Below, piece after piece: positions 1,068 through 17,655 of a DNA stretch of 20,740 nucleotides. Position numbers and translations under genes: made by a program. Each line of letters begins with the position of its first letter. The stretch's first letter is position 1. Under the pieces are notes generated by a model. The model worked only from the letters and a program-made list of their open reading frames with translations, did no database searches and was not told where the DNA came from. Origin of the DNA: Sphingomonas sp. CCH10-B3 (GTDB lineage Bacteria; Pseudomonadota; Alphaproteobacteria; Sphingomonadales; Sphingomonadaceae); assembly GCF_001556185.1 (NCBI RefSeq), contig NZ_LSIJ01000099.1, positions 1-20,740 of the forward strand, in the 5' to 3' direction.

Positions 1068-1367
1068 TATCCACAGCCTCGCCCTAGTGTTAATATATGG
1101 GTTTAGAGTCGTGTTACGGGATTTGGGCGGTTTTATAGTGCGTTGAAAATAATGTATTAATTGGCGTTTTTGTGACGCGTGGTGAATCCGCTCTGACGAA
1201 AAAGCGAATCCAGAGTGACGATAGGGTGAATCCACTCTGACGATAGGCCCGCCCCCTCCAAGCGTAATCGGAATGACGATAGCGCGGGGGTGAATCTGAA
1301 ATGACGATAATCCGCTTGCGTATGTGAAATGACGATAGTAGCTGTGGCGTTAGTGAAATGACGATAG
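1068..1367. other. oriV: Candidate vegetative origin (oriV)
   Basis: The stretch combines the usual parts of an iteron origin. There is a perfect DnaA box TTATCCACA at 1068-1076 and an AT-rich segment at about 1085-1175 (TTAATATA, AATAATGTATTAATT). Seven 22-bp repeats ending in TGACGATAG or a close variant follow (1181-1367), and the replication initiator gene comes directly after. The order DnaA box, AT-rich region, iterons, rep is the evidence; function is inferred. Confidence 0.75.
1181..1367 (+). repeat. Iterons: seven 22-bp repeats
   Basis: Copies lie at 1181-1202, 1203-1224, 1225-1246, 1261-1282, 1289-1310, 1317-1338 and 1346-1367. The first three are in exact 22-bp tandem; the rest are spaced 28-36 bp start to start. 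The 3' half TGACGATAG is the most conserved part, and the 5' half varies between GGTGAATC and looser forms. These are the expected binding sites of the adjacent initiator. The last copy contains its ATG. Confidence 0.8.
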
Positions 1368-2470
1368 ACTCCGCCCCTTCCCTGTTTGACGCGCCGATCG
1401 CCGCGCCGTCCACGGCCGTGGACGGCGACGATCGCACGCCGCTGCTGCCGGTGCGGCACCCTAACCAAGACCTGTTCATCTGCGATGTTCTCGACGCCAT
1501 CCCCAAGGACGACATGGCCTCGATGGAGCATCCGGTTTTCTCGCTCTCGACCAAGCCCGACAACCGGATGCGGCGCTATGAGCATAACGGCAACGTTATC
1601 GAGATTATCCCCTCGGGCAAGGGGCTGGCGACGATCCACGACAAGGACATATTGATCTACTGTATTTCGCAGCTCGTCGCGAAGATGAATCAGGGCCAGC
1701 AACCTAGCCGCACGGTGCGCCTGCAAGCCTATGACATGCTCGTCGCCACCAACCGGCAAACCAGCGGCGAAGGCTATCGGCTGATGGCCGACGCCCTCAC
1801 CCGCCTGCGCGGGACCACGGTGCGGACCAATATCCAGACGGGCGGTGTCGAGGAAACGCGGATTTTCGGGCTGATCGAAGAAGCCAGAATCACACGCAAG
1901 ACGTTCGACGGCCGTATGCTCGATCTGGAAATCACCCTGTCGGATTGGGTCTATCGCTCGGTCATCAGCAAGAATGTTCTGACGCTTCACCGCGACTATT
2001 TCCGGCTCCGCAAGCCGTTCGAGCGGCGCATGTATGAGCTGGCCCGCAAGCATTGCGGCGTGAAGGACGAATGGAAGATCGGCCTGGAGCTGCTGCAAAA
2101 GAAATGCGGCTCGAACAGCCCGCTCCGGGTGTTACGGGCCTTGGTCAAGAAGGTCTGCGAGCATGACGCGGACCACGGCCATTTCCCCGACTATGCGGTG
2201 ACGATGAATGATGACGTGATCCTGTTCCGCAACCGCTCGGGCCTCAAGTCCAAGCCCGATCCGCTCGCCAACGCCGGCGACGATGCGCCCTATATCGACC
2301 CGGAAACCATGCACGACGCCAAGACGGCCGCGCCAGGCTATGACGTGTATGCGCTTTATGACGAATGGGTGTCGTGGTGGCACGACATGGGCAAGCCCGA
2401 GCTGAAAAGCCCCCGCGCCGCTTTCCTAGGCTTCTGCAAGAAACGGCACGAACGCAAGCCACTGCGCTGA
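1358..2470 (+). CDS. repA: Plasmid replication initiator protein A (RPA family)
   Basis: This 370-residue protein has the core of the replication initiator A family (RPA, Pfam PF10134). Recognisable blocks are DLFICDVLDAIPKDDMASMEHPVFSLS (split in the family as LFICD and MEHPVFSL), the RYEHNGNVIEIIPSG stretch, ATIHDKDILIYC, and the winged-helix-like region near residues 110-220 (LRGTTVRTNIQTGG, LTLHRDYFRL, FERRMYELARKHCG). It should bind the iterons just upstream and open the origin together with DnaA. The ATG at 1358 is the first possible start after an in-frame TGA at 1325-1327. It lies inside the last iteron and has no clear ribosome binding site, so occupancy of the origin probably also represses synthesis. 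The gene ends just before a hairpin and the first CATG box cluster. The length fits a complete protein. Confidence 0.9.
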   Translation: MTIDSAPSLFDAPIAAPSTAVDGDDRTPLLPVRHPNQDLFICDVLDAIPKDDMASMEHPVFSLSTKPDNRMRRYEHNGNVIEIIPSGKGLATIHDKDILIYCISQLVAKMNQGQQPSRTVRLQAYDMLVATNRQTSGEGYRLMADALTRLRGTTVRTNIQTGGVEETRIFGLIEEARITRKTFDGRMLDLEITLSDWVYRSVISKNVLTLHRDYFRLRKPFERRMYELARKHCGVKDEWKIGLELLQKKCGSNSPLRVLRALVKKVCEHDADHGHFPDYAVTMNDDVILFRNRSGLKSKPDPLANAGDDAPYIDPETMHDAKTAAPGYDVYALYDEWVSWWHDMGKPELKSPRAAFLGFCKKRHERKPLR

Positions 2471-2475
2471 TCCCT

Positions 2476-2511
2476 TATGTGGACAAGCGTTCATGTCCAC
2501 ATGCAAACATA
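2476..2511. repeat. CATG box cluster 1 with inverted repeat after repA
   Basis: The tetramers TATG, CAAG, CATG, CATG and CATA start at 2476, 2484, 2492, 2500 and 2508, an exact 8-bp period with 4-bp spacers. The same bases also form a hairpin with 9-bp arms ATGTGGACA/TGTCCACAT (2477-2485 and 2494-2502). It could be a partition site, a terminator-like stem for repA, or both; no T-run follows. Confidence 0.5.
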
Positions 2512-2559
2512 TCGACTGATCCGCCTTTGTCACTTTCTGGTCGATAGCTACGGACTCGA

Positions 2560-3024
2560 CTACAGGTGAAGTCCAAGAAAGGATGCGCCGGGAACCGGGT
2601 TGAAGGAAATCGGCTCCGCCGCGACGAAACCAAGAGTCTCATACAGCTTGCGCGCGGGGACGAACTTCGCTTGCACATCGAGCCTCATTTCGCTGTAGCC
2701 CACAGTGCGAGCTTCCTCGATCAGACGTTCAGCGAGCGCGCGACCAAGATGCCGTCCCTGAGCCTGGGGACGAACATATAGTCGTTTCATCTCGCATATC
2801 TCGTGTGTGACTTGGCGCATCGCTACGCAGCCTTCGATTTCCCCCTCCCGGTCCGCAAGCAGCACGCATCCTTTGGGCGCCGCATACTTCCCAGGCAAGT
2901 TTGCAAACTCAGCGTCATTATTCTGATAGTCGAGATTGACCGGCGAATTAGCGATGAACTCACGCCAGATGCCCAGCACCGAAGCTGTGTCACGAGGAAA
3001 GATCGCGTGCCTAATAACTACCAT
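2560..3024 (-). CDS. GNAT-family N-acetyltransferase
   Basis: This 154-residue protein has the GNAT fold signature. The acetyl-CoA pyrophosphate loop appears as RPQAQGRHLGRAL (Q-x-x-x-G), preceded by the beta-4 strand EMKRLYVRP and followed by the C-terminal ARKLYETLGF block. It would transfer an acetyl group from acetyl-CoA to an amine; the substrate cannot be read from the sequence. I chose the ATG at 3024 because similarity to the family begins at MVVIRHA. The frame stays open further upstream but that part has no domain character. The gene sits between CATG box clusters 1 and 2, on the same strand as the partition genes. It could be drug resistance, protein acetylation or an antitoxin-like activity; nothing nearby decides. 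Confidence 0.75.
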   Translation of the reverse strand: MVVIRHAIFPRDTASVLGIWREFIANSPVNLDYQNNDAEFANLPGKYAAPKGCVLLADREGEIEGCVAMRQVTHEICEMKRLYVRPQAQGRHLGRALAERLIEEARTVGYSEMRLDVQAKFVPARKLYETLGFVAAEPISFNPVPGASFLGLHL

Positions 3025-3084
3025 AGCGTGATTGCTTCGCCGAAAATCGTGGCGGCAATAGGACAGTGTCATGGCGTTAACTGC

Positions 3085-3104
3085 CATGTTTGCATGTGAA
3101 CATG
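3085..3104. repeat. CATG box cluster 2
   Basis: Three CATG tetramers at 3085, 3093 and 3101, separated by the 4-bp spacers TTTG and TGAA, upstream of the acetyltransferase gene. Its last 19 bases are identical to those of cluster 3. Confidence 0.6.
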
Positions 3105-3116
3105 ACGACATTGAGT

Positions 3117-3470
3117 TTAACTTCGGCCCAGGCTCCTTCCGATCAACCAAAGCTGGAAAACATGGGCCGCCACGAACGCGCCTCCAATAAAGATCGGGGA
3201 CGGTAACAGCATCCCCTCCTGCCCCGGCCTCGGCGTTAGGGTCATCGCGGTAACATTGAACAGCCCCAGCACACAGATCGCAAGGAAGGGCGTGAAGCTG
3301 AGAGCTAGAACGCGAGGTGCGGACCAATTCACCAAATTGGAAAGCGGCTCTGATCGTGAAAGCCGCCATTGCATCGGCAGTTTCCTTTCCTGCCGGAAAC
3401 GGGCGTTTGCCCGGATGGACAATCCGATCATCACCAGTGCGAAGATGGCGGACACGATTAGCACGTCCAT
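3117..3470 (-). CDS. Small membrane protein of unknown function
   Basis: This 117-residue protein has three likely transmembrane segments at about residues 3-20, 52-76 and 90-112. A basic, tryptophan-containing loop lies between the first two (RFRQERKLPMQWRLSRSEP). The motif LPMQWRL followed by WSAPRVLALSFTP faintly recalls the DUF1648/SdpI N-terminal pattern, but I would not name it on that. It is on the minus strand, 39 bp downstream of the ribbon-helix-helix partition gene, and it is flanked by CATG clusters 2 and 3. Its transcription may therefore be linked to the partition operon. No catalytic motif is visible. Confidence 0.55.
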   Translation of the reverse strand: MDVLIVSAIFALVMIGLSIRANARFRQERKLPMQWRLSRSEPLSNLVNWSAPRVLALSFTPFLAICVLGLFNVTAMTLTPRPGQEGMLLPSPIFIGGAFVAAHVFQLWLIGRSLGRS

Positions 3471-3488
3471 GAGTTTTCCCCTAAGCTA

Positions 3489-3508
3489 TATGTTTGCATG
3501 TGAACATG
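3489..3508. repeat. CATG box cluster 3
   Basis: TATG (3489), CATG (3497) and CATG (3505) are spaced by TTTG and TGAA. The 19-mer ATGTTTGCATGTGAACATG at 3490-3508 is identical to the one in cluster 2. The phase continues weakly with CTTG at 3513. The cluster sits between the ribbon-helix-helix gene and the small membrane-protein gene. Confidence 0.6.
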
Positions 3509-3509
3509 C

Positions 3510-3824
3510 TCACTTGCCTACAGGACTTTCCCCCATCTTTCGGAGCCAGTCGTTGAACGCCTCGGCCATCGCGTCCTGCAAGCTCATGCCGTGCTTGCGG
3601 GCGGTCATGTGCATGGCGAACGACATTTCCGGGCTGAAATAGCCCGTCATCGCCTTCTTGCCCTGACGGCTCGGCGCAACCGGGCTGCTGCTCGAACTGC
3701 TGCCGGTGCCTACGCCAGTGCTGCGGGCGATCGGCGCGGCCGCCCTTCCCTCCGGCTCGGCCGTCGCCGGCGTCGGCGCTGCGTCCCGATCCCGCAATGC
3801 AAGCAATGATCCCTTCCGGCTCAT
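3510..3824 (-). CDS. parB: Ribbon-helix-helix centromere-binding protein (ParB/ParG-like)
   Basis: This 104-residue protein has a flexible, low-complexity N-terminal half (about residues 1-54, rich in Ser, Ala and Pro, with a run of serines). It is followed by a compact C-terminal domain that fits a ribbon-helix-helix: a short strand KAMTGYFS, then two helices around ARKHGMSLQDAMAEAFNDWLRKM (conserved turn HGMSLQ). This layout, disordered tail plus RHH dimer, is that of ParG and other type Ib centromere-binding proteins. The tail often stimulates the partner ATPase. Its ATG overlaps the parA stop in ATGA (3821-3824), so the two are translationally coupled. It should bind the nearby CATG boxes and repress its own operon; that is inference from context. 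No homology to classical large ParB is seen. Confidence 0.7.
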   Translation of the reverse strand: MSRKGSLLALRDRDAAPTPATAEPEGRAAAPIARSTGVGTGSSSSSSPVAPSRQGKKAMTGYFSPEMSFAMHMTARKHGMSLQDAMAEAFNDWLRKMGESPVGK

Positions 3825-4474
3825 GCGCTGGCCCTCCGCTTCCTATCTGCTGGCATGTTTACATGTTCACATGCCCACTTGTAAAGCTGACGCACCTCAT
3901 CGGCCGCCTTGCCATTCGGTTCGATCTCCATCACGGTTTTTCCCTCGGTCGCCGCATGGCGGAACGCGGCGCGATCCGCGACATGCAGCGGGCAGGCGTC
4001 CAGCCCGTAACCCTGCACGAGCTGCGCCGCCTCGTCATACATGCGTGGCGCGGTCGGGCTTCCCGCCGTGAAGATCACGAAAGCGGGCTTGCCGCGCATC
4101 TTCACAAGGCTGGCCGTGGTCTTGATCGCGGCCAGGTCGAACGCGCTCGGCCGACAAGGTATCAACACCAGGTCGGCCGCCTCGACGGCGGCGCTGGCGG
4201 CGCTGTCGGCATGGGGCGGGGTGTCGATCACGATGAACTCCGCGCCCTGCGCCGTCGCTTGCTCGATCTTGGCGGCAAGGCGAGGGGGGGCGCTGTCGAT
4301 CACGACCGGGGGCGCGTCCTGCCGCCATGCCGCCCATTGGCTCGCCGTCGCCTGCGGGTCGAGGTCGATCACCAGCGCGGTATGCCCGGAATCCTCGGCG
4401 GCTGCGGCCAGGTGCAAGGCGAGGGTGGTCTTGCCCGCGCCCCCCTTCTGGCTGATGATCGCGATTGTTGGCAT
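3821..4474 (-). CDS. parA: ParA-family partition ATPase (type Ib)
   Basis: This 217-residue protein of the MinD/ParA Walker ATPase class moves plasmid copies over the nucleoid. It has the deviant Walker A motif KGGAGKTT at residues 10-17, Walker A' VIDLDPQ at 35-41 and Walker B FIVIDTPP at 80-87. It lacks the N-terminal DNA-binding extension of type Ia ParA, and its length fits type Ib. I chose the ATG at 4474, although the frame is open to 4498. The motif starts right after it (MPTIAIIS), and a good ribosome binding site, AAGGA, lies 7 bases upstream. The start codon falls inside CATG cluster 5, suggesting autorepression by the downstream RHH protein. The 3' end encodes CATG cluster 4 in frame. 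It is followed by the RHH gene with a 4-base ATGA overlap. Confidence 0.92.
   Translation of the reverse strand: MPTIAIISQKGGAGKTTLALHLAAAAEDSGHTALVIDLDPQATASQWAAWRQDAPPVVIDSAPPRLAAKIEQATAQGAEFIVIDTPPHADSAASAAVEAADLVLIPCRPSAFDLAAIKTTASLVKMRGKPAFVIFTAGSPTAPRMYDEAAQLVQGYGLDACPLHVADRAAFRHAATEGKTVMEIEPNGKAADEVRQLYKWACEHVNMPADRKRRASA
3854..3873. repeat. CATG box cluster 4, inside the 3' end of parA
   Basis: CATG at 3854, 3862 and 3870, with spacers TTTA and TTCA; the phase continues to CTTG at 3878. The boxes are embedded in coding sequence for the C-terminal ACEHVNMP of ParA, so they are maintained alongside a protein constraint. Confidence 0.5.
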
Positions 4475-4515
4475 GTGAATATCCTTACATGAACTCATGT
4501 TTGCATGTGGTCATA
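4472..4515. promoter_or_regulatory. CATG box cluster 5 over the parA start (operator/centromere candidate)
   Basis: Tetramers at 4472 (CATG), 4480 (TATC), 4488 (CATG), 4496 (CATG), 4504 (CATG) and 4512 (CATA) keep an exact 8-bp phase over 44 bp. The first box contains the parA start codon read on the minus strand, and the cluster spans its ribosome binding site. This is the longest cluster and the best candidate for an autoregulatory operator that may double as the centromere. Confidence 0.6.
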
Positions 4516-4549
4516 GCGCAAACGGCTATCGGATGAAAGGGCAGGGCGT

Positions 4550-5191
4550 CTAGCCGTCCTCGCCGCCCTCATCCTCGCTGTCATCGTCCAGCGCCTCATG
4601 GCTCATCTGGCCGTGATCCTCGATCGGGCAAAGCGGCGCTCCGGCCTGCTCAAGCCATTTGCGCGCGGTCCTCGCGGTATAGCCGCACGTCGCGCACTCG
4701 CATTTCAGCATCCGGGTTTTCTGCTTCTTGGGCGCGGTCGACTCCCCGTCCGTGTCGAGACGGGCATGGGGGAGGGGGCCAGCGGCATCGAGGATCGGTG
4801 CGACGGCCGCAAGGAACGCCTCGCCGGGGGTGGTGGCGCGCATAGGCCCGACCAACCCCAGCCCCAGCGCGACCCGTTTAAACGCCTTCCCATGCCCTGC
4901 CGGGATGCCGACGGCGGCATGGACCAGCTCATGCGCGAGGATGGCCGCGATCTGCGCCGGCATCGCATCGGGCGCGTGCGCTAGGTCCGGGCGAATGAAG
5001 ATTTCAAAATGCCCGTCCGCGCTAAGTCGGTTGTCCCAGCACTCACCGATCGCCTTGCCCTTCGCGCCTCTGCTGGTGAAGCCGATCGCCACGCGTACGC
5101 GGTCGGGCAGGGGGGCGTCCAGCGCCTCGAACAGCAGAGCCATGCCCTGCGCCACGGCATTGAGCCAGCTTTCGCGGGTTTCGTGGGTCAT
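4550..5191 (-). CDS. SprT-like zinc metalloprotease-domain protein
   Basis: This 213-residue protein has a metallopeptidase motif HELVH at residues 87-91 with a third likely zinc ligand, His100, in AGHGKAF, the SprT arrangement. A C-terminal zinc ribbon follows with C164, C166, C169 and a distal CP at 188, plus H193. It ends in an acidic tail (DDDSEDEGGEDG). SprT/Spartan-type proteins are linked to DNA-protein crosslink handling, but the substrate here is unknown. The ATG at 5191 is preceded by AAGGGAG, 8 bases away, a strong ribosome binding site. The longer open frame upstream is not needed. Plasmid-borne SprT-like genes occur in other proteobacteria as accessory maintenance genes. The 3' part contains one CGTTTAAACG palindrome (4875-4884). 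Confidence 0.8.
   Translation of the reverse strand: MTHETRESWLNAVAQGMALLFEALDAPLPDRVRVAIGFTSRGAKGKAIGECWDNRLSADGHFEIFIRPDLAHAPDAMPAQIAAILAHELVHAAVGIPAGHGKAFKRVALGLGLVGPMRATTPGEAFLAAVAPILDAAGPLPHARLDTDGESTAPKKQKTRMLKCECATCGYTARTARKWLEQAGAPLCPIEDHGQMSHEALDDDSEDEGGEDG
4875..4884. repeat. Palindrome CGTTTAAACG, copy 2
   Basis: The same 10-bp palindrome, here inside the SprT-like coding region. Confidence 0.45.
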
Positions 5192-5594
5192 CGTCTTTAC
5201 TCCCTTCAAATCGCCTGTCCGGCGATGGCCATGCCATCGGCCGGAACACGGACGCCCAAGAACGCCGGCGAGAGAGGGGGGCAGCGGGAATCTGCGGGAG
5301 TGGTGCGCGGCGCAGGGAGGCGCAGCCGAGTGAGCCACGGTCCCGCTGATTGCCGTTGCGGGGGAGAGGCGGCCGGGACCGCCTTTCCCCCGGCGCTGCT
5401 GCGCGAGATCCGCGCAGCGATCTCGCTTCCGCCATGTGGATCGTTACCTTGGGCCAAGACCGCTTGCGGGCTTGGGGAGCGTGAGCGACTAGAGCCACGG
5501 TGCCGCGCCAGCGGCAGGCGCATAATCACCGCACCCATTGCCAAAATCAGATTCTGTGACTACATTGGGACTACGTTTTCAGAAGGAAATCCCA
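5192..5594. other. Divergent intergenic region with hairpins
   Basis: The stretch lies between the minus-strand SprT-like gene and the plus-strand toxin-antitoxin operon; I see no gene in it. It contains a perfect stem CGATGGC-CAT-GCCATCG (5223-5239) and an 8-bp stem GCGAGATC/GATCTCGC with an 8-base loop (5403-5426). The decamer GAGCCACGGT occurs twice in direct orientation, at about 5332 and 5493. The right end carries the toxin-antitoxin promoter. Confidence 0.4.
5538..5574 (+). promoter_or_regulatory. Putative promoter and operator of the toxin-antitoxin operon
   Basis: TTGCCA (5538-5543) and TACATT (5561-5566) are separated by 17 bp, a reasonable sigma-70-type match just upstream of the antitoxin. 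The hexamer GACTAC occurs twice (5558-5563 and 5569-5574), 11 bp start to start and overlapping the -10. That spacing is close to one helical turn, as expected for cooperative binding by an antitoxin or antitoxin-toxin complex. Confidence 0.45.
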
Positions 5595-5861
5595 ATGGCT
5601 GTTTCCGACACCTATGTCCGCGCCAGGATCGACAATACGACGAAGGAACGCGCCACCGCCGCGCTGGGCGCGATGGGCCTTTCGATCTCCGACGCTATCC
5701 GGCTGCTGATGCTGCGTATCGCCGACGAACGGCGCTTGCCTTTCGAGGTCAAGGTTCCGAACGCCGCGACACGCGAGGCAATGGCAGAGCTGGCGGCGGG
5801 GAAGGGGACCAAGTTCGCCAGCGTCGATGCGCTGATGGCGGACCTCCATGCGGACGATTGA
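5595..5861 (+). CDS. dinJ: RelB/DinJ-family antitoxin
   Basis: This 88-residue antitoxin has an N-terminal ribbon-helix-helix with the DinJ pattern: a strand DTYVRARID followed by helices in KERATAALGAMGLSISDAIR, where the LGLS-like turn is MGLSISDAI. The C-terminal part, VPNAATREAMAELAAGK, would wrap the toxin. The ATG at 5595 has GAAGGA 7 bases upstream; the frame is open to 5538 but that part lies in the promoter. The 3' end overlaps the toxin gene by 14 bases (5848-5861). It should neutralise the toxin and repress its own promoter, where two GACTAC hexamers are visible. Confidence 0.88.
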   Translation: MAVSDTYVRARIDNTTKERATAALGAMGLSISDAIRLLMLRIADERRLPFEVKVPNAATREAMAELAAGKGTKFASVDALMADLHADD

Positions 5862-6129
5862 TCGTTCGACCCGGTTCAAGCGCGACTACAAGCGGGAATC
5901 AAAGGGCCGGCATCGAGCGACCCTCGATGCCGATCTTCTGCCCGTCCTGGCCGCGCTCGCGACCGACACGCCGCTTGATCCCAAATACCGCGACCATGAT
6001 CTGAGCGGCGATTGGGCGGGCTACCGCGATTGCCACGTCAAGCCCGATCTGGTGCTGATCTACGCCAAGCCCGACGACGAAACGCTGCGCCTCGCGCGCC
6101 TTGGCTCGCATAGCGAGGTATTCGGATAG
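5848..6129 (+). CDS. yafQ: YafQ-family RelE-like mRNA interferase toxin
   Basis: This 93-residue toxin of the RelE/YafQ group cleaves mRNA on the ribosome. The residues known to matter in Escherichia coli YafQ are present at matching positions: His50 and His63, Asp67, His88 and Phe92 (E. coli His87 and Phe91). They are seen here in YRDHDLSGDW, DCHVKPD and GSHSEVFG. The length is standard and there is no sign of inactivation. It overlaps the antitoxin by 14 bases and is followed with no gap by the phosphatase gene, whose ATG directly follows the TAG. With the antitoxin it forms a plasmid stabilisation module. Confidence 0.9.
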   Translation: MRTIDRSTRFKRDYKRESKGRHRATLDADLLPVLAALATDTPLDPKYRDHDLSGDWAGYRDCHVKPDLVLIYAKPDDETLRLARLGSHSEVFG

Positions 6130-8154: not shown

Positions 8155-8513
8155 CTCTCTGCGGGGTCGCCGCGATAGCGCACCCAAAGGTCGCCCATCG
8201 CGTCGCGGTAGCCCCAGGCATCGGCGTAGGTGGTCGACTCCTGCGCCAGATAGGCCATGACCGTAAGCATATCCTCGGCAATGACGGCATCGACGTTGCA
8301 CAAGTGGATGATCGGGAAATGCCCGCACTCGTCGCCGTTCCACCAGGCCAGCAGGAAATCCGCGACCTTGCCGGATGCGCCGGTTTCGGCCGCGCGTGTG
8401 GGCGGCCGCGCGATCGGCAGCAAGCGGCCGATCGCCGCGCCGGCCTCATCGAAACTGACGGCCCGGATGACGGGGCGACGTTGCGGGGGTGTCGTGGCGG
8501 CCGTCCCGGTCAT
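8148..8513 (-). CDS. DUF7673-like protein of unknown function
   Basis: This 121-residue protein has a proline-rich N-terminal third and a conserved-looking C-terminal domain: VADFLLAWWNGDECGHFPI, a short NVDAVIAEDMLTVMAYLA helix, then YADAWGYRDAMGDLWVRYRG. From memory this matches the pattern of DUF7673 proteins on proteobacterial plasmids. I could not check it. No catalytic motif is visible. It is the first gene of a minus-strand operon with the ParD-like and recombinase genes, 37 bp upstream of the former. Its TAA stop lies inside the palindrome CGTTTAAACG (8145-8154). The ATG at 8513 was preferred over one at 8555, which lies in the likely promoter. Confidence 0.6.
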   Translation of the reverse strand: MTGTAATTPPQRRPVIRAVSFDEAGAAIGRLLPIARPPTRAAETGASGKVADFLLAWWNGDECGHFPIIHLCNVDAVIAEDMLTVMAYLAQESTTYADAWGYRDAMGDLWVRYRGDPAESV

Positions 8514-15228: not shown

Positions 15229-15329
15229 GCTACGGCAACGGCCGACAGTGCCTCTGAGTAGAGCATGGTCGCTGTAACGGGTGACTTCGTCACGCGGCCC
15301 GGGCCCACTTGCGAACGCCGCGGCGATCC

Positions 15330-15349
15330 GCCGCTTTGAAAAAAGCGGC
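15330..15349 (+). promoter_or_regulatory. Perfect 8-bp stem-loop upstream of the SulP gene
   Basis: GCCGCTTT and AAAGCGGC pair perfectly around a GAAA tetraloop, 55 bp before the transporter start. There is no T-run, so it is not a standard terminator. It may be an mRNA leader structure or the end of the preceding transcript. Confidence 0.4.
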
Positions 15350-15403
15350 AACCCTGCTTTGCTCGCCGCTCACCAAATCCTGCATACAGTTATGGAGACC
15401 CTT

Positions 15404-16981
15404 GTGTCCTCTTCGAAACAACCTCTTGCGTCGTTGCGGACAGATCTGCCCGCATCCATCGTCGTTGCGCTCGTTGCGCTCCCGCTCTGTCTGGGCGTCG
15501 CCCTTGCGTCAGGAGCGCCCCTATTTTCTGGCCTGATAGCAGGTATCGTCGGCGGCATTGTAGTTGGCGGCCTGTCCCGGTCTCCGTTGTCCGTCAGCGG
15601 TCCTGCCGCGGGCCTTACGGTTATCGTGCTCGACACCATCAATTCCCTACCGAGCTATCCGATCTTTTTGTCGGTAGTGGTTTTGGCGGGCGCGTTGCAG
15701 TTGGCATTTTCTACGGCTCGCGCGGGAATCCTGAGCGAATTTATCCCGTCCTCAGTGATCACGGGGATGTTGGCATCGATCGGACTTATTCTTGTTCTCA
15801 AACAGATTCCGTTCGCGATCGGCTATGAGGTCGAGGCTGAGGGTAGCTTTCAATTCTCTTCTGGTGACGGGAACACGTTCACCAACCTTTTCGTGTTCCT
15901 GAGGCGCAAATTTGAGCCGGGTGCGCTGATCATCAGCCTCGCGGGCCTTGCTTTCCTGTTCTGGTGGAACAGCGCGAAACCCAAGCAGGGTCCGCTCCGT
16001 TTCTTGCCAGGCCCCTTGGTGGCCGTCCTGATCGGCGTCATCGGCAATGCGCTGCTCGGGGCGTTTCTACCTTCCTGGAAGATTGGCACGGAGCATCTTG
16101 TTCAGGTGCCAGTCTCCAAAAGCCCGGCCGAATTTGCTCAGCTTTTCTCCCTTCCCGATTTTTCGGGTATCGGGAGCAGTGCCGTCTGGATCGCAGCAGC
16201 CACGATTGCCATCGTCGCTAGCCTGGAGTCGATGCTCAGCATCAAGGCCATCGACGAGCTCGACCCGCAACGACGCACCACTGACAAGAACTGGGAACTG
16301 ATGGCCCAGGGTGGCGGCAACATCGTGTCGGGACTGCTGGGAGGGCTGCCAGTCACCTCGGTGATCGTGCGTTCCTCGGCCAACGTCGGTGCGGGCGCGC
16401 AGAGCAAGGCGTCGACGATGCTGCATGGGCTATGGCTGCTGTTGTCGGTCGCGTTGATCCCCATGGTGCTCAACCTCATCCCGCTAGCGGCACTCGCGGC
16501 GGTGCTGATCGCAACCGGCTACAAGCTTTGCACGCCCCAGCTTTTCCTGGACCGCTACCGACAAGGCTGGACCCAGTTCATCCCGTTCGTAGTAACCGTG
16601 ATCGCGATCATGTTCACCAACTTGCTCGAAGGCGTCCTGATCGGCCTTGTGATTGGGTTCGTGTTCGTCATAGCGCGTAATTTTCGATCTGCCGTAACGT
16701 TTGCATGCGAGGGCAATGATTGCCTCATCCGTGCACGGCGTAACCTGTATTTTATCCACAAATATGAACTTCAGAAGCAACTAAACCGCGTTCCCGAAAA
16801 TAGCCGGCTTCTGATTGATCTTTCCGCGACGAGCTATGTTGATCTCGATAATGTCGAGATTATTAACTCCTTTATCAAAGCCGCTCGATTCAAGTCGGTA
16901 GATGTGGTCGTTCGTGGCGATCTTGCCGAACGGACATCTCCTTTGATCAACGCCCCCGTAGTTGGAGTAAGATTCGCATGA
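15404..16981 (+). CDS. SulP-family anion (probable bicarbonate/sulfate) transporter with STAS domain
   Basis: This 525-residue inner-membrane transporter has about ten to twelve hydrophobic helices. It starts with the SulP signature region ASIVVALVALPLCLGVALASGAP, then GLSRSPLSVSGPAAGLTVIV, and later ESMLSIKAIDELDPQRR and NIVSGLLGGLPVTSVIVRSSANV. A C-terminal STAS-type cytoplasmic domain follows (about 430-520, RLLIDLSATSYVDLDNVEII). SulP proteins carry sulfate, bicarbonate and other anions. Coupling to a carbonic anhydrase by an ATGA overlap (16978-16981) points to bicarbonate. I chose GTG 15404 because GGAG sits 6 bases upstream; ATG 15392 is in frame but lacks a site. The 3' part is visibly richer in A and T than the plasmid backbone genes. 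Confidence 0.88.
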   Translation: MSSSKQPLASLRTDLPASIVVALVALPLCLGVALASGAPLFSGLIAGIVGGIVVGGLSRSPLSVSGPAAGLTVIVLDTINSLPSYPIFLSVVVLAGALQLAFSTARAGILSEFIPSSVITGMLASIGLILVLKQIPFAIGYEVEAEGSFQFSSGDGNTFTNLFVFLRRKFEPGALIISLAGLAFLFWWNSAKPKQGPLRFLPGPLVAVLIGVIGNALLGAFLPSWKIGTEHLVQVPVSKSPAEFAQLFSLPDFSGIGSSAVWIAAATIAIVASLESMLSIKAIDELDPQRRTTDKNWELMAQGGGNIVSGLLGGLPVTSVIVRSSANVGAGAQSKASTMLHGLWLLLSVALIPMVLNLIPLAALAAVLIATGYKLCTPQLFLDRYRQGWTQFIPFVVTVIAIMFTNLLEGVLIGLVIGFVFVIARNFRSAVTFACEGNDCLIRARRNLYFIHKYELQKQLNRVPENSRLLIDLSATSYVDLDNVEIINSFIKAARFKSVDVVVRGDLAERTSPLINAPVVGVRFA

Positions 16982-17655
16982 GAGAATATCGACAGCTTCT
17001 TCTCGCCAACCGGGCTTGGTCGCAGGAACTTATCGACGAGCGCGCGGACTTCTTCACGCGACAAGCCGATGGCCAGAAGCCAGCGTTCTTGTGGATCGGT
17101 TGCTCGGACAGCCGGGTCAGCCCTGAACAGATGACCATGACTCCTCCGGGAGGTATGTTCATTCACCGCAACGTCGCCAACCTTGTTAATCCGAGCGATC
17201 TCAACCTGATGGCGGCGCTGCAATATGCAGTCCAGGTGCTCAAGGTTCCGCACATCATTGTGTGCGGTCATTATGGGTGTGGTGGCATCAGGGGGGCATT
17301 CGCAGGAGGAGCTACCGGTCAACTCAGGCAGTGGCTCGATCATGCGAGTAGCGTTGTGCGCGATCATGCCGATGAACTTGCAGCGTTGGATGGTGAGGAA
17401 GCCAAGCTCAACAGACTCGTTGAAATGAATGTCAGGGATCAGCTGATCAACTTGGCAAGAACCGATATAGTTGAAAGCGCGTGGAAAGACGGCCAACCGC
17501 TTTGGTTGCATGGCTGGATTTACGACATTCGCGACGGTCATATCAAACCGCTGATGGAACTGGATGCAGACGCTTCCTTGGAAGAGGTCGGCCGCCCAGA
17601 TAGCGTCCTTTTCTCGCATCCCGATCATACCAAAAACAGCATCTCTTTGGATTAG
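16978..17655 (+). CDS. can: Beta-class carbonic anhydrase
   Basis: This 225-residue zinc enzyme interconverts carbon dioxide and bicarbonate. The zinc ligands are Cys42, His98 and Cys101 in GCSDSRVSP and CGHYGCGG, and the catalytic dyad is Asp44/Arg46. The HRNVANLV block (residues 63-70) and the C-terminal WLHGWIYDIRDG block are typical. The segment after CSDSR reads EQMTMTPPGGMFIHRN, slightly off the common EQITGLxPGELFVHRN. The ATG overlaps the SulP stop (ATGA), so the two are made together. A membrane-delivered bicarbonate stream with cytoplasmic hydration/dehydration is the likely joint function, for pH or anaplerotic carbon supply. The sequence appears complete. Confidence 0.93.
   Translation: MREYRQLLLANRAWSQELIDERADFFTRQADGQKPAFLWIGCSDSRVSPEQMTMTPPGGMFIHRNVANLVNPSDLNLMAALQYAVQVLKVPHIIVCGHYGCGGIRGAFAGGATGQLRQWLDHASSVVRDHADELAALDGEEAKLNRLVEMNVRDQLINLARTDIVESAWKDGQPLWLHGWIYDIRDGHIKPLMELDADASLEEVGRPDSVLFSHPDHTKNSISLD

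Follow-up and report, generated by a model that had tools for sequence, protein, structure and literature searches.

Phased CATG boxes around parA as a probable centromere and operator of a type Ib partition system in sphingomonad plasmids

Introduction

What are the CATG tetramers that recur every 8 bp around a parA gene of Sphingomonas sp. CCH10-B3, and which protein would read them? The locus lies on contig NZ_LSIJ01000099.1, whose 20,740 nucleotides are called the window throughout, and comprises parA, a gene coding for a 104-amino acid (aa) ribbon-helix-helix (RHH) protein, the replication gene repA and five arrays of boxes, here named A to E. To our knowledge, few RHH-type plasmid centromeres have been mapped. 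We infer, with a probability of about 0.87, that the phased CATG boxes are both the centromere and the autoregulatory operator of a type Ib plasmid partition system made of ParA and the RHH protein, this inference covering binding of the boxes, repression through them, stimulation of ParA and segregation of the plasmid.

Phased boxes in the window

The first-pass annotation of the window had reported CATG clusters at 2476-2511, 3085-3104, 3489-3508, 3854-3873 and 4472-4515. All five were found at these coordinates, although three of them run on as degenerate boxes and are better delimited as 3085-3112, 3489-3524 and 3854-3881. A search for phased CATG triples (at least 11 of 12 bases matching) returned 10 at a period of 8 bp; in 500 first-order Markov shuffles the mean was 0.058, and no shuffle had more than 1. 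All 10 fall within the partition region (2471-4520), the rest of the window containing none. At every other period from 5 to 15 the count was 0, and the single triple at period 16 is a harmonic of 8. CATG ranks first among the 256 tetramers for phased triples in the window, followed by GCGC (6) and CGCG (5). The longer word CATGNNNNCATG is present in 9 copies in the 20,740 bases, for 0.49 expected and a maximum of 3 in 100 dinucleotide shuffles; eight copies lie within 2492-4507 and the remaining one at 8511.

The five arrays are given as read on the complementary strand. Array A (4472-4515) consists of six boxes in 8-bp register, one of them degenerate (TATG.CATG.CATG.CATG.GATA.CATG); the last box contains the parA start codon. 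Array B (3854-3881; CAAG.CATG.CATG.CATG) is located in the 3' coding end of parA, and the left half of array C (3489-3524; CCTG.CAAG.CATG.CATG.CATA) spans the RHH stop codon. Past a gene for a 117-aa protein, array D (3085-3112; AATG.CATG.CATG.CATG) looks like a copy of the core of C. Array E (2476-2511; TATG.CATG.CATG.CTTG.CATA) stands beside the repA stop codon.

The spacers are not random. Among 166 units from 41 distinct arrays of 17 loci of clade I (defined below by the beta strand of the RHH protein), the 8-bp unit is RCATGY-NN, the tetramer being preceded by A or G in about 90% of cases and followed by T or C in about 87%, with 4-bp spacers of about 58% A+T. Arrays of this clade hold 3 to 9 boxes, 4 or 5 in 31 of the 41. 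A promoter scan of 2400-4700 returned one sigma-70-like site, for 0.5 expected, and none at parA.

Partition genes and proteins

The parA gene (3821-4474, complementary strand; start codon set by comparison with homologues) codes for a 217-aa type Ib ParA ATPase without N-terminal DNA-binding domain, a domain search having returned ATPase domains only. The protein passes NF041546 (ParA family partition ATPase) with 213.8 bits for a cut-off of 180 and, among solved structures, matches ParF of TP228 (4dzz) with an E value of 3.6e-14. Directly downstream, the RHH gene (3510-3824, complementary strand), whose reading frame overlaps that of parA at 3821-3824, codes for the predicted centromere-binding protein, which has a long N-terminal tail and passes PF20605 ('antitoxin-like' ribbon-helix-helix) with 59.3 bits for a cut-off of 27.2. 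A sequence search of the Protein Data Bank (PDB) with the single RHH sequence gave nothing notable, the best match being PilP (E 4.2). A profile search of the same bank gave as best match a repeat protein named E8 (E 4.4e-4, with no single stretch significant), and weaker matches to 2kel (E 0.14), to 9kkd of the CopG type (E 0.27) and to ParG (1p94, E 0.96).

The predicted DNA-reading beta strand, KAMTGYF, corresponds to RHH codons 57-63 (3636-3656, complementary strand) and varies with the box word; residues 58, 60 and 62 are presumably its DNA-facing positions, by alignment to CopG. The structure model of the protein, of low confidence (pLDDT 58), has helices at residues 65-77 and 82-97 and no strand. 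Residues 1-13 (3786-3824, complementary strand) form a conserved N-terminal motif in which M1 and R3 are near-invariant in 32 homologues and R11-D12-R13 invariant in 27 close homologues. By analogy with ParG, this motif is likely a ParA-activating tail.

The name of PF20605 could suggest that the RHH protein is an antitoxin and the boxes toxin-antitoxin operators. The gene next to it codes for ParA, not for a toxin, both in the window and in 47 of the 48 loci found via the RHH protein (loci L017-L019, fetched via ParA, are left out of this count), and related plasmids have a distinct RelB/DinJ-YafQ pair annotated at some distance; we accord this explanation almost no probability. For the family at large, ParA was present within the fetched stretch for 11 of the 16 above-cut-off PF20605 hits in 398 genomes of the phylum.

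In the partition system that we propose, each RHH dimer would read one RCATGY box with its paired beta strands, as judged by analogy with ParF-ParG and delta-omega, and dimers would stack side by side every 8 bp, coating arrays mostly of 4-9 boxes. Bound to array A, the RHH protein would cover the parA start and so repress the parA-RHH operon. Bound to A, to B within parA and to C downstream, it would build a partition complex whose N-terminal tails would stimulate ParA, moving plasmid copies apart on the nucleoid.

Conservation in relatives

A tblastn search with the RHH protein matched 49 of 72,556 plasmid records, 43 from sphingomonad genera and 6 from Acetobacteraceae, of which 16 were fetched first and two loci (L086 and L087) were added later. 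When 396 genomes belonging to the same order as the nearest genome, presumably Sphingomonadales, were searched, 36 were found to encode the protein, and 30 of these loci were fetched. The comparison set amounts to 51 loci, namely these 30 genome loci, 20 plasmid loci and the window.

Of the 16 plasmid loci fetched at the start, 14 have phased CATG arrays at three shared positions: upstream of parA (A), in the last parA codons (B) and at and past the RHH stop codon (C). The two exceptions, L015 and L016, have a different RHH beta strand. The layout of array A is unchanged in 14 clade I plasmid loci. Among the clade I genome loci, seven of eight carry phased CATG in A, B and C, the eighth (L027) in B and C only. 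L027 is a clade I RHH locus in which these two arrays remain and parA looks disrupted, because the match covers residues 174-217 only. In pISP3 and pDC03, C is a single array of 8-9 boxes. The two clusters that the first-pass annotation had singled out, one as the parA operator and one in the parA coding sequence, are both conserved in relatives. Array A is likely the operator plus part of the centromere.

Outside par loci the phased boxes are rare, since all 62 exact triples found in the 16 plasmid records (1.05 Mb) are at such loci. One of these is about 0.5 kb upstream of parA in L016, and 12 are in second par copies on three records, where they were placed by identical spacing. As for the genomes, exact triples are present in eight of eight with a clade I RHH protein and in none of eight without, three of the latter having clade II relatives. 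Of the 25 genome triples, 23 are on the contig of the RHH gene; the other two, on the large contig of genome G001, are in the range expected by chance according to our own arithmetic. On record NZ_CP046255.1 the par-locus triples recur at an offset of 10,418 bases within 20,834 bases, for which reason this record is probably a head-to-tail dimer.

In eight plasmids (L005-L008 and L010-L013) that have no cargo gene there, the RHH gene and repA converge on array C from either side, and C is for this reason more likely a centromere than an operator. The same observation bears on the possibility that the arrays serve as operators only, with the RHH protein repressing parA and the cargo genes locally and with a centromere at some other place. 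This would agree with array A covering the parA start and with C and D being located just upstream of the 117-aa and GNAT genes in the window. It agrees poorly with convergent gene ends on both sides of C in cargo-free plasmids, and with an array inside parA, B, that is retained across clades with different words. We regard the operator-only explanation as unlikely, no systematic search for another centromere having been made.

RepA and its iterons

The proximity of repA raises the question of whether the boxes could be iterons bound by RepA for replication or copy control. The gene (1358-2470, forward strand) codes for a replication initiator of the RPA family (PF10134, 293.6 bits); its stop codon borders the cluster at 2476-2511, and RepA and the RHH protein mostly have their close relatives on the same records. 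A separate family of RepA-type iterons is present upstream of repA (1181-1367, forward strand), made of TGACGATAG units with three spacings of 28-29 bp and one of 58, and unrelated to the CATG boxes. Iterons upstream of repA are also reported for pPDL2 and pUT1 (PMC3516476).

Moreover, boxes and RepA can be dissociated. Plasmid pSREG01 has a RepA 71% identical to that of the window but neither a CATG triple nor a clear 8-bp period, and its partner protein matches nothing in Pfam. In pUT1 of Sphingobium indicum UT26S, RepA is 62% identical and the gene order (SprT, parA, RHH, repA) is that of the window; the partner is a PF20605 protein with the beta strand TKLIGGHF, and in the par region (L084, 1040-2162) the top phased tetramer is TATA, present in A, B and C at 8 bp, with no CATG triple. 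Taken singly, A and C of pUT1 show a raised value at lag 8 which is not the highest. Conversely, RAC03 and pBAR2 (L086 and L087, which share the module) have a clade I RHH protein and full CATG arrays with no annotated repA within 3 kb. Because pSREG01, pUT1 and RAC03/pBAR2 dissociate the boxes from RepA, the boxes go with the RHH protein and not with RepA, and it is extremely improbable that they are RepA iterons.

The ParA of pPDL2 is identical to that of pUT1. The authors of the study on pPDL2, a sphingomonad degradation plasmid, reported that they could find no parB homologue (PMC3516476), and the RHH gene beside pUT1 parA is likely the counterpart of the ParB reported missing on this related plasmid.

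Register, word and beta strand

The 51 loci can be grouped by the RHH beta strand, which is KKAMTGYF in clade I (23 loci), mostly RKAISGYF or RKAIAAYF in clade II (11 loci) and RKQIAGFF in clade III (12 loci). Four further loci fall outside these clades, as does L048, which has no ParA match and an internal stop; L016 and L044 are apparently one locus. L033 and L035, two clade II parA-RHH loci with phased arrays, are on chromosome-sized contigs of more than 3 Mb; they may be plasmids that have integrated, or partition loci of a chromosome.

The 8-bp register is common to all these groups. For 12 of 12 clade-by-region sets (A, B and C in clades I to III and in the four other loci), identity at lag 8 exceeds the value at every one of the 20 other lags tested, multiples of 8 excluded, the lead being narrow for region C of the four other loci (0.324 vs 0.313). 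The parA body and the RHH body have nothing outstanding at lag 8. Upstream of parA, the best comb period is 8 in 37 of 39 non-redundant loci, 33 of them at p<0.01, the two exceptions being L027 and L041; it is also 8 in 13 of 18 more distant loci. For this test, L053 (truncated parA) and L054 (the same locus as L021) were left out, as were 13 further distant loci without ParA match, and removal of near-duplicate A regions, including that of the window, left 57 of 68 loci. Loci L080-L083 are four plasmids hand-picked among 60 listed rows. In one of them, Nitrosomonas eutropha plasmid p1 (L080), parA is directly preceded, at about 2391-2470, by some ten CATGAAAC 8-mers in perfect tandem.

The word itself changes from clade to clade. 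The top phased tetramers were derived with no preset word from 14 non-redundant loci of clade I, 10 of clade II and 11 of clade III. Clade I has CATG on top in each of the three regions; clade II has CACA in A and C, and in B a tie between CACA and ACAT; clade III has CGAC in A and C, and in B has it in second place after GACA. Nineteen loci have in region C at least one pair of boxes with one of these three words, and in all 19 the region has the word of its own clade (clade I, 14 loci; clade II, 4; clade III, 1). The three words were picked after the beta-strand clades had been seen. Residues 58, 60 and 62 are A-T-Y with CATG, A-S/A-Y with CACA and Q-A-F with CGAC. The box word of the first-pass annotation is confirmed for this locus, but CATG is one of several words, and it is the 8-bp register that is general to the ParA/RHH family.

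These observations would be compatible with a readable centromere code in the NF041546-ParA/RHH family, in which the 8-bp register would be fixed, the word would be swapped with three beta-strand residues presumed to face DNA, and one part of a tripartite centromere would dictate the C-terminal tail of ParA. We give this wider proposal slightly better than even odds.

Several results weigh against the proposed role of the boxes as centromere and operator. The 8-bp signal is weak in region C of clade III (0.288 vs 0.276 for the best other lag), and five of the 18 more distant loci have a best period other than 8. In region C, no more than 4 of the 10 loci of clade II and 1 of the 11 of clade III have pairs of the clade word. 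In region A, CATG pairs turn up outside clade I as well, at 6 of 10 loci in clade II and 4 of 11 in clade III, and in L016, of clade III, parA is preceded by an exact CATG triple; the box words are not exclusive for these reasons. With only about five groups, word and beta strand are confounded with descent. The low pLDDT of the RHH model has the same bearing. Finally, genome G329 has five related clade II loci (L029 and L088-L091), with CACA on top in four, and coexistence of such systems is thus unexplained by words alone. Distinct words as a coexistence rule had been suggested by pCHQ1 (CATG) and pUT1 (TATA), both in strain UT26S, and this rule was dropped over G329.

Array B inside parA

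When 16 parA genes of clade I are compared in windows of 12 codons, synonymous codons are fewest in the windows that begin at codons 195-197, over array B, with 1.57 distinct codons per invariant residue vs 2.45 over 145 body codons. As six array B codons carry this result, it is only suggestive. Within this set, parA of L008 is frameshifted at its start and the tail of L009 is one codon shorter. The L008 gene (plasmid pSF4) appears frameshifted near its 5' end, at about 3351-3380, and is not among the annotated genes there.

Array B is retained in clades with different words and, 8 not being a multiple of 3, the word hits all reading frames and shapes the ParA tail. The tail is YKWTCEHVNMQ in clade I, YKWTCRQLDMP in L039 of clade III and RLYEYTTIRLYN in pUT1, the latter two having been read by eye.

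These results also bear on a neutral origin of the repeats, as simple-sequence or recombination debris spread with the plasmid family. Copies D and E do show that arrays can be duplicated or split. Such debris would hardly keep its register and positions while its word changes between clades, nor would it leave synonymous sites least variable over B, few as the codons are. We consider a neutral origin highly unlikely.

Comparison with known systems

The centromere parH of plasmid TP228 has an 8-bp period. As in ParF-ParG/parH, the locus described here combines a small ParA, an RHH protein with a flexible N-terminal tail, degenerate tetramer boxes, AT-rich spacers and upstream operator repeats (PMC7308502, PMC5016525). 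NF041546 is passed both by the window ParA and by a ParA beside an annotated ParG. Unlike in ParF-ParG, the RHH protein belongs here to PF20605, the word is CATG, one array is inside parA and one is downstream of the RHH gene. The protein has no match to the ParG family PF09274 at E 0.001, in line with the E value of 0.96 to the ParG structure given above, and hhalign gives a probability of 7.6% for the RHH protein against a ParG-annotated alignment, most members of which carry the ParD and not the ParG Pfam domain.

A second likeness is to delta-omega/parS of pSM19035, where an RHH protein coats contiguous short repeats that overlap promoters and where ParA is fully activated only by a run of four contiguous repeats or more (PMC9499535). 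Arrays with at least four boxes would fit this number. The repeats of pSM19035 are 7-bp heptads (WATCACW) at the promoters of three genes, in contrast to 8-bp boxes inside one operon here; no CATG triple (at least 11 of 12 bases) was found at period 7 against ten at period 8, WATCACW itself not having been searched for. A third likeness is to the pUT1 par locus, which has the same gene order and three arrays at 8 bp, and differs from the window in its word, TATA, and in its RHH beta strand, TKLIGGHF.

Two further candidates, the stability fragments of pYAN-2 (PMC4041236) and the parS of NAH7 (PMC12421886), were set aside as different systems, and the work on ParR incompatibility in Clostridium (PMC9426499) serves as background for partition specificity only. 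A search of an open-access library gave no recognisable description of this centromere, nor of PF20605 as a partition family. The CATG-box system would work like ParF-ParG but has no ParG-family match.

Cargo genes and neighbouring features

The first-pass annotation had seen in the five clusters a dispersed, multi-cluster centromere. Arrays A, B and C are indeed conserved, but the 2-kb spread is largely secondary. Two cargo genes part the remaining clusters in the window: the gene for a 117-aa hypothetical protein without Pfam match (3117-3470, complementary strand), between arrays C and D, and a gene for a GNAT acetyltransferase (PF00583; 2560-3024, complementary strand), between D and E. 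The cluster at 3085 resembles a copy of the array at 3489, and that at 2476 one half of it, with these genes in between. When compared by eye with the right end of the uninterrupted pISP3 array (L005), array E looks like the right half of an ancestral C array; all comparisons of arrays between plasmids were read by eye.

The cargo varies among relatives. The order C, 117-aa gene, D, GNAT gene, E is shared by the window, L022 and L023. On pCHQ1 the order is C, GNAT, E. On pSWIT01, C is followed by the 117-aa gene (in two frames), then by D, by what is left of the GNAT end and by a transposon. A homologue of the 117-aa gene separates two arrays in L004 and L026, pISP3 and L024-L025 have a single array and no cargo there, and in genome G001 the D array is 18.3 kb from the RHH gene. 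Because of this variation, the dispersal is attributed largely to insertions into, or recombination between, copies of one array.

The cargo genes stand in varied combinations between array copies (window 2476-3524; L001, L003, L004, L022, L023 and L026), in the manner of gene-plus-repeat modules; insertion or homologous exchange may be especially frequent at the array. Plasmid pSY2 (L009) has a SulP gene between its RHH gene and repA. Elsewhere in the window, a SulP-type anion transporter gene is followed by a carbonic anhydrase-like gene at 15281-17655, both named from their translations only, and a RelB/DinJ-YafQ-type toxin-antitoxin pair is likely present at 5538-6129, judging from the annotated pair at the matching place on L001 and L004.

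Conclusions

A likely partner type and its sites can now be named. PF20605, labelled 'antitoxin-like', is suggested to be largely a family of partition proteins. The rule of an 8-bp register with a word set by the beta strand would predict centromeres and operators, and the clades offer natural sets of matched protein and site variants for studying how RHH proteins choose their DNA. If the code is true, the centromeres of many unstudied plasmids would be predictable from sequence alone.

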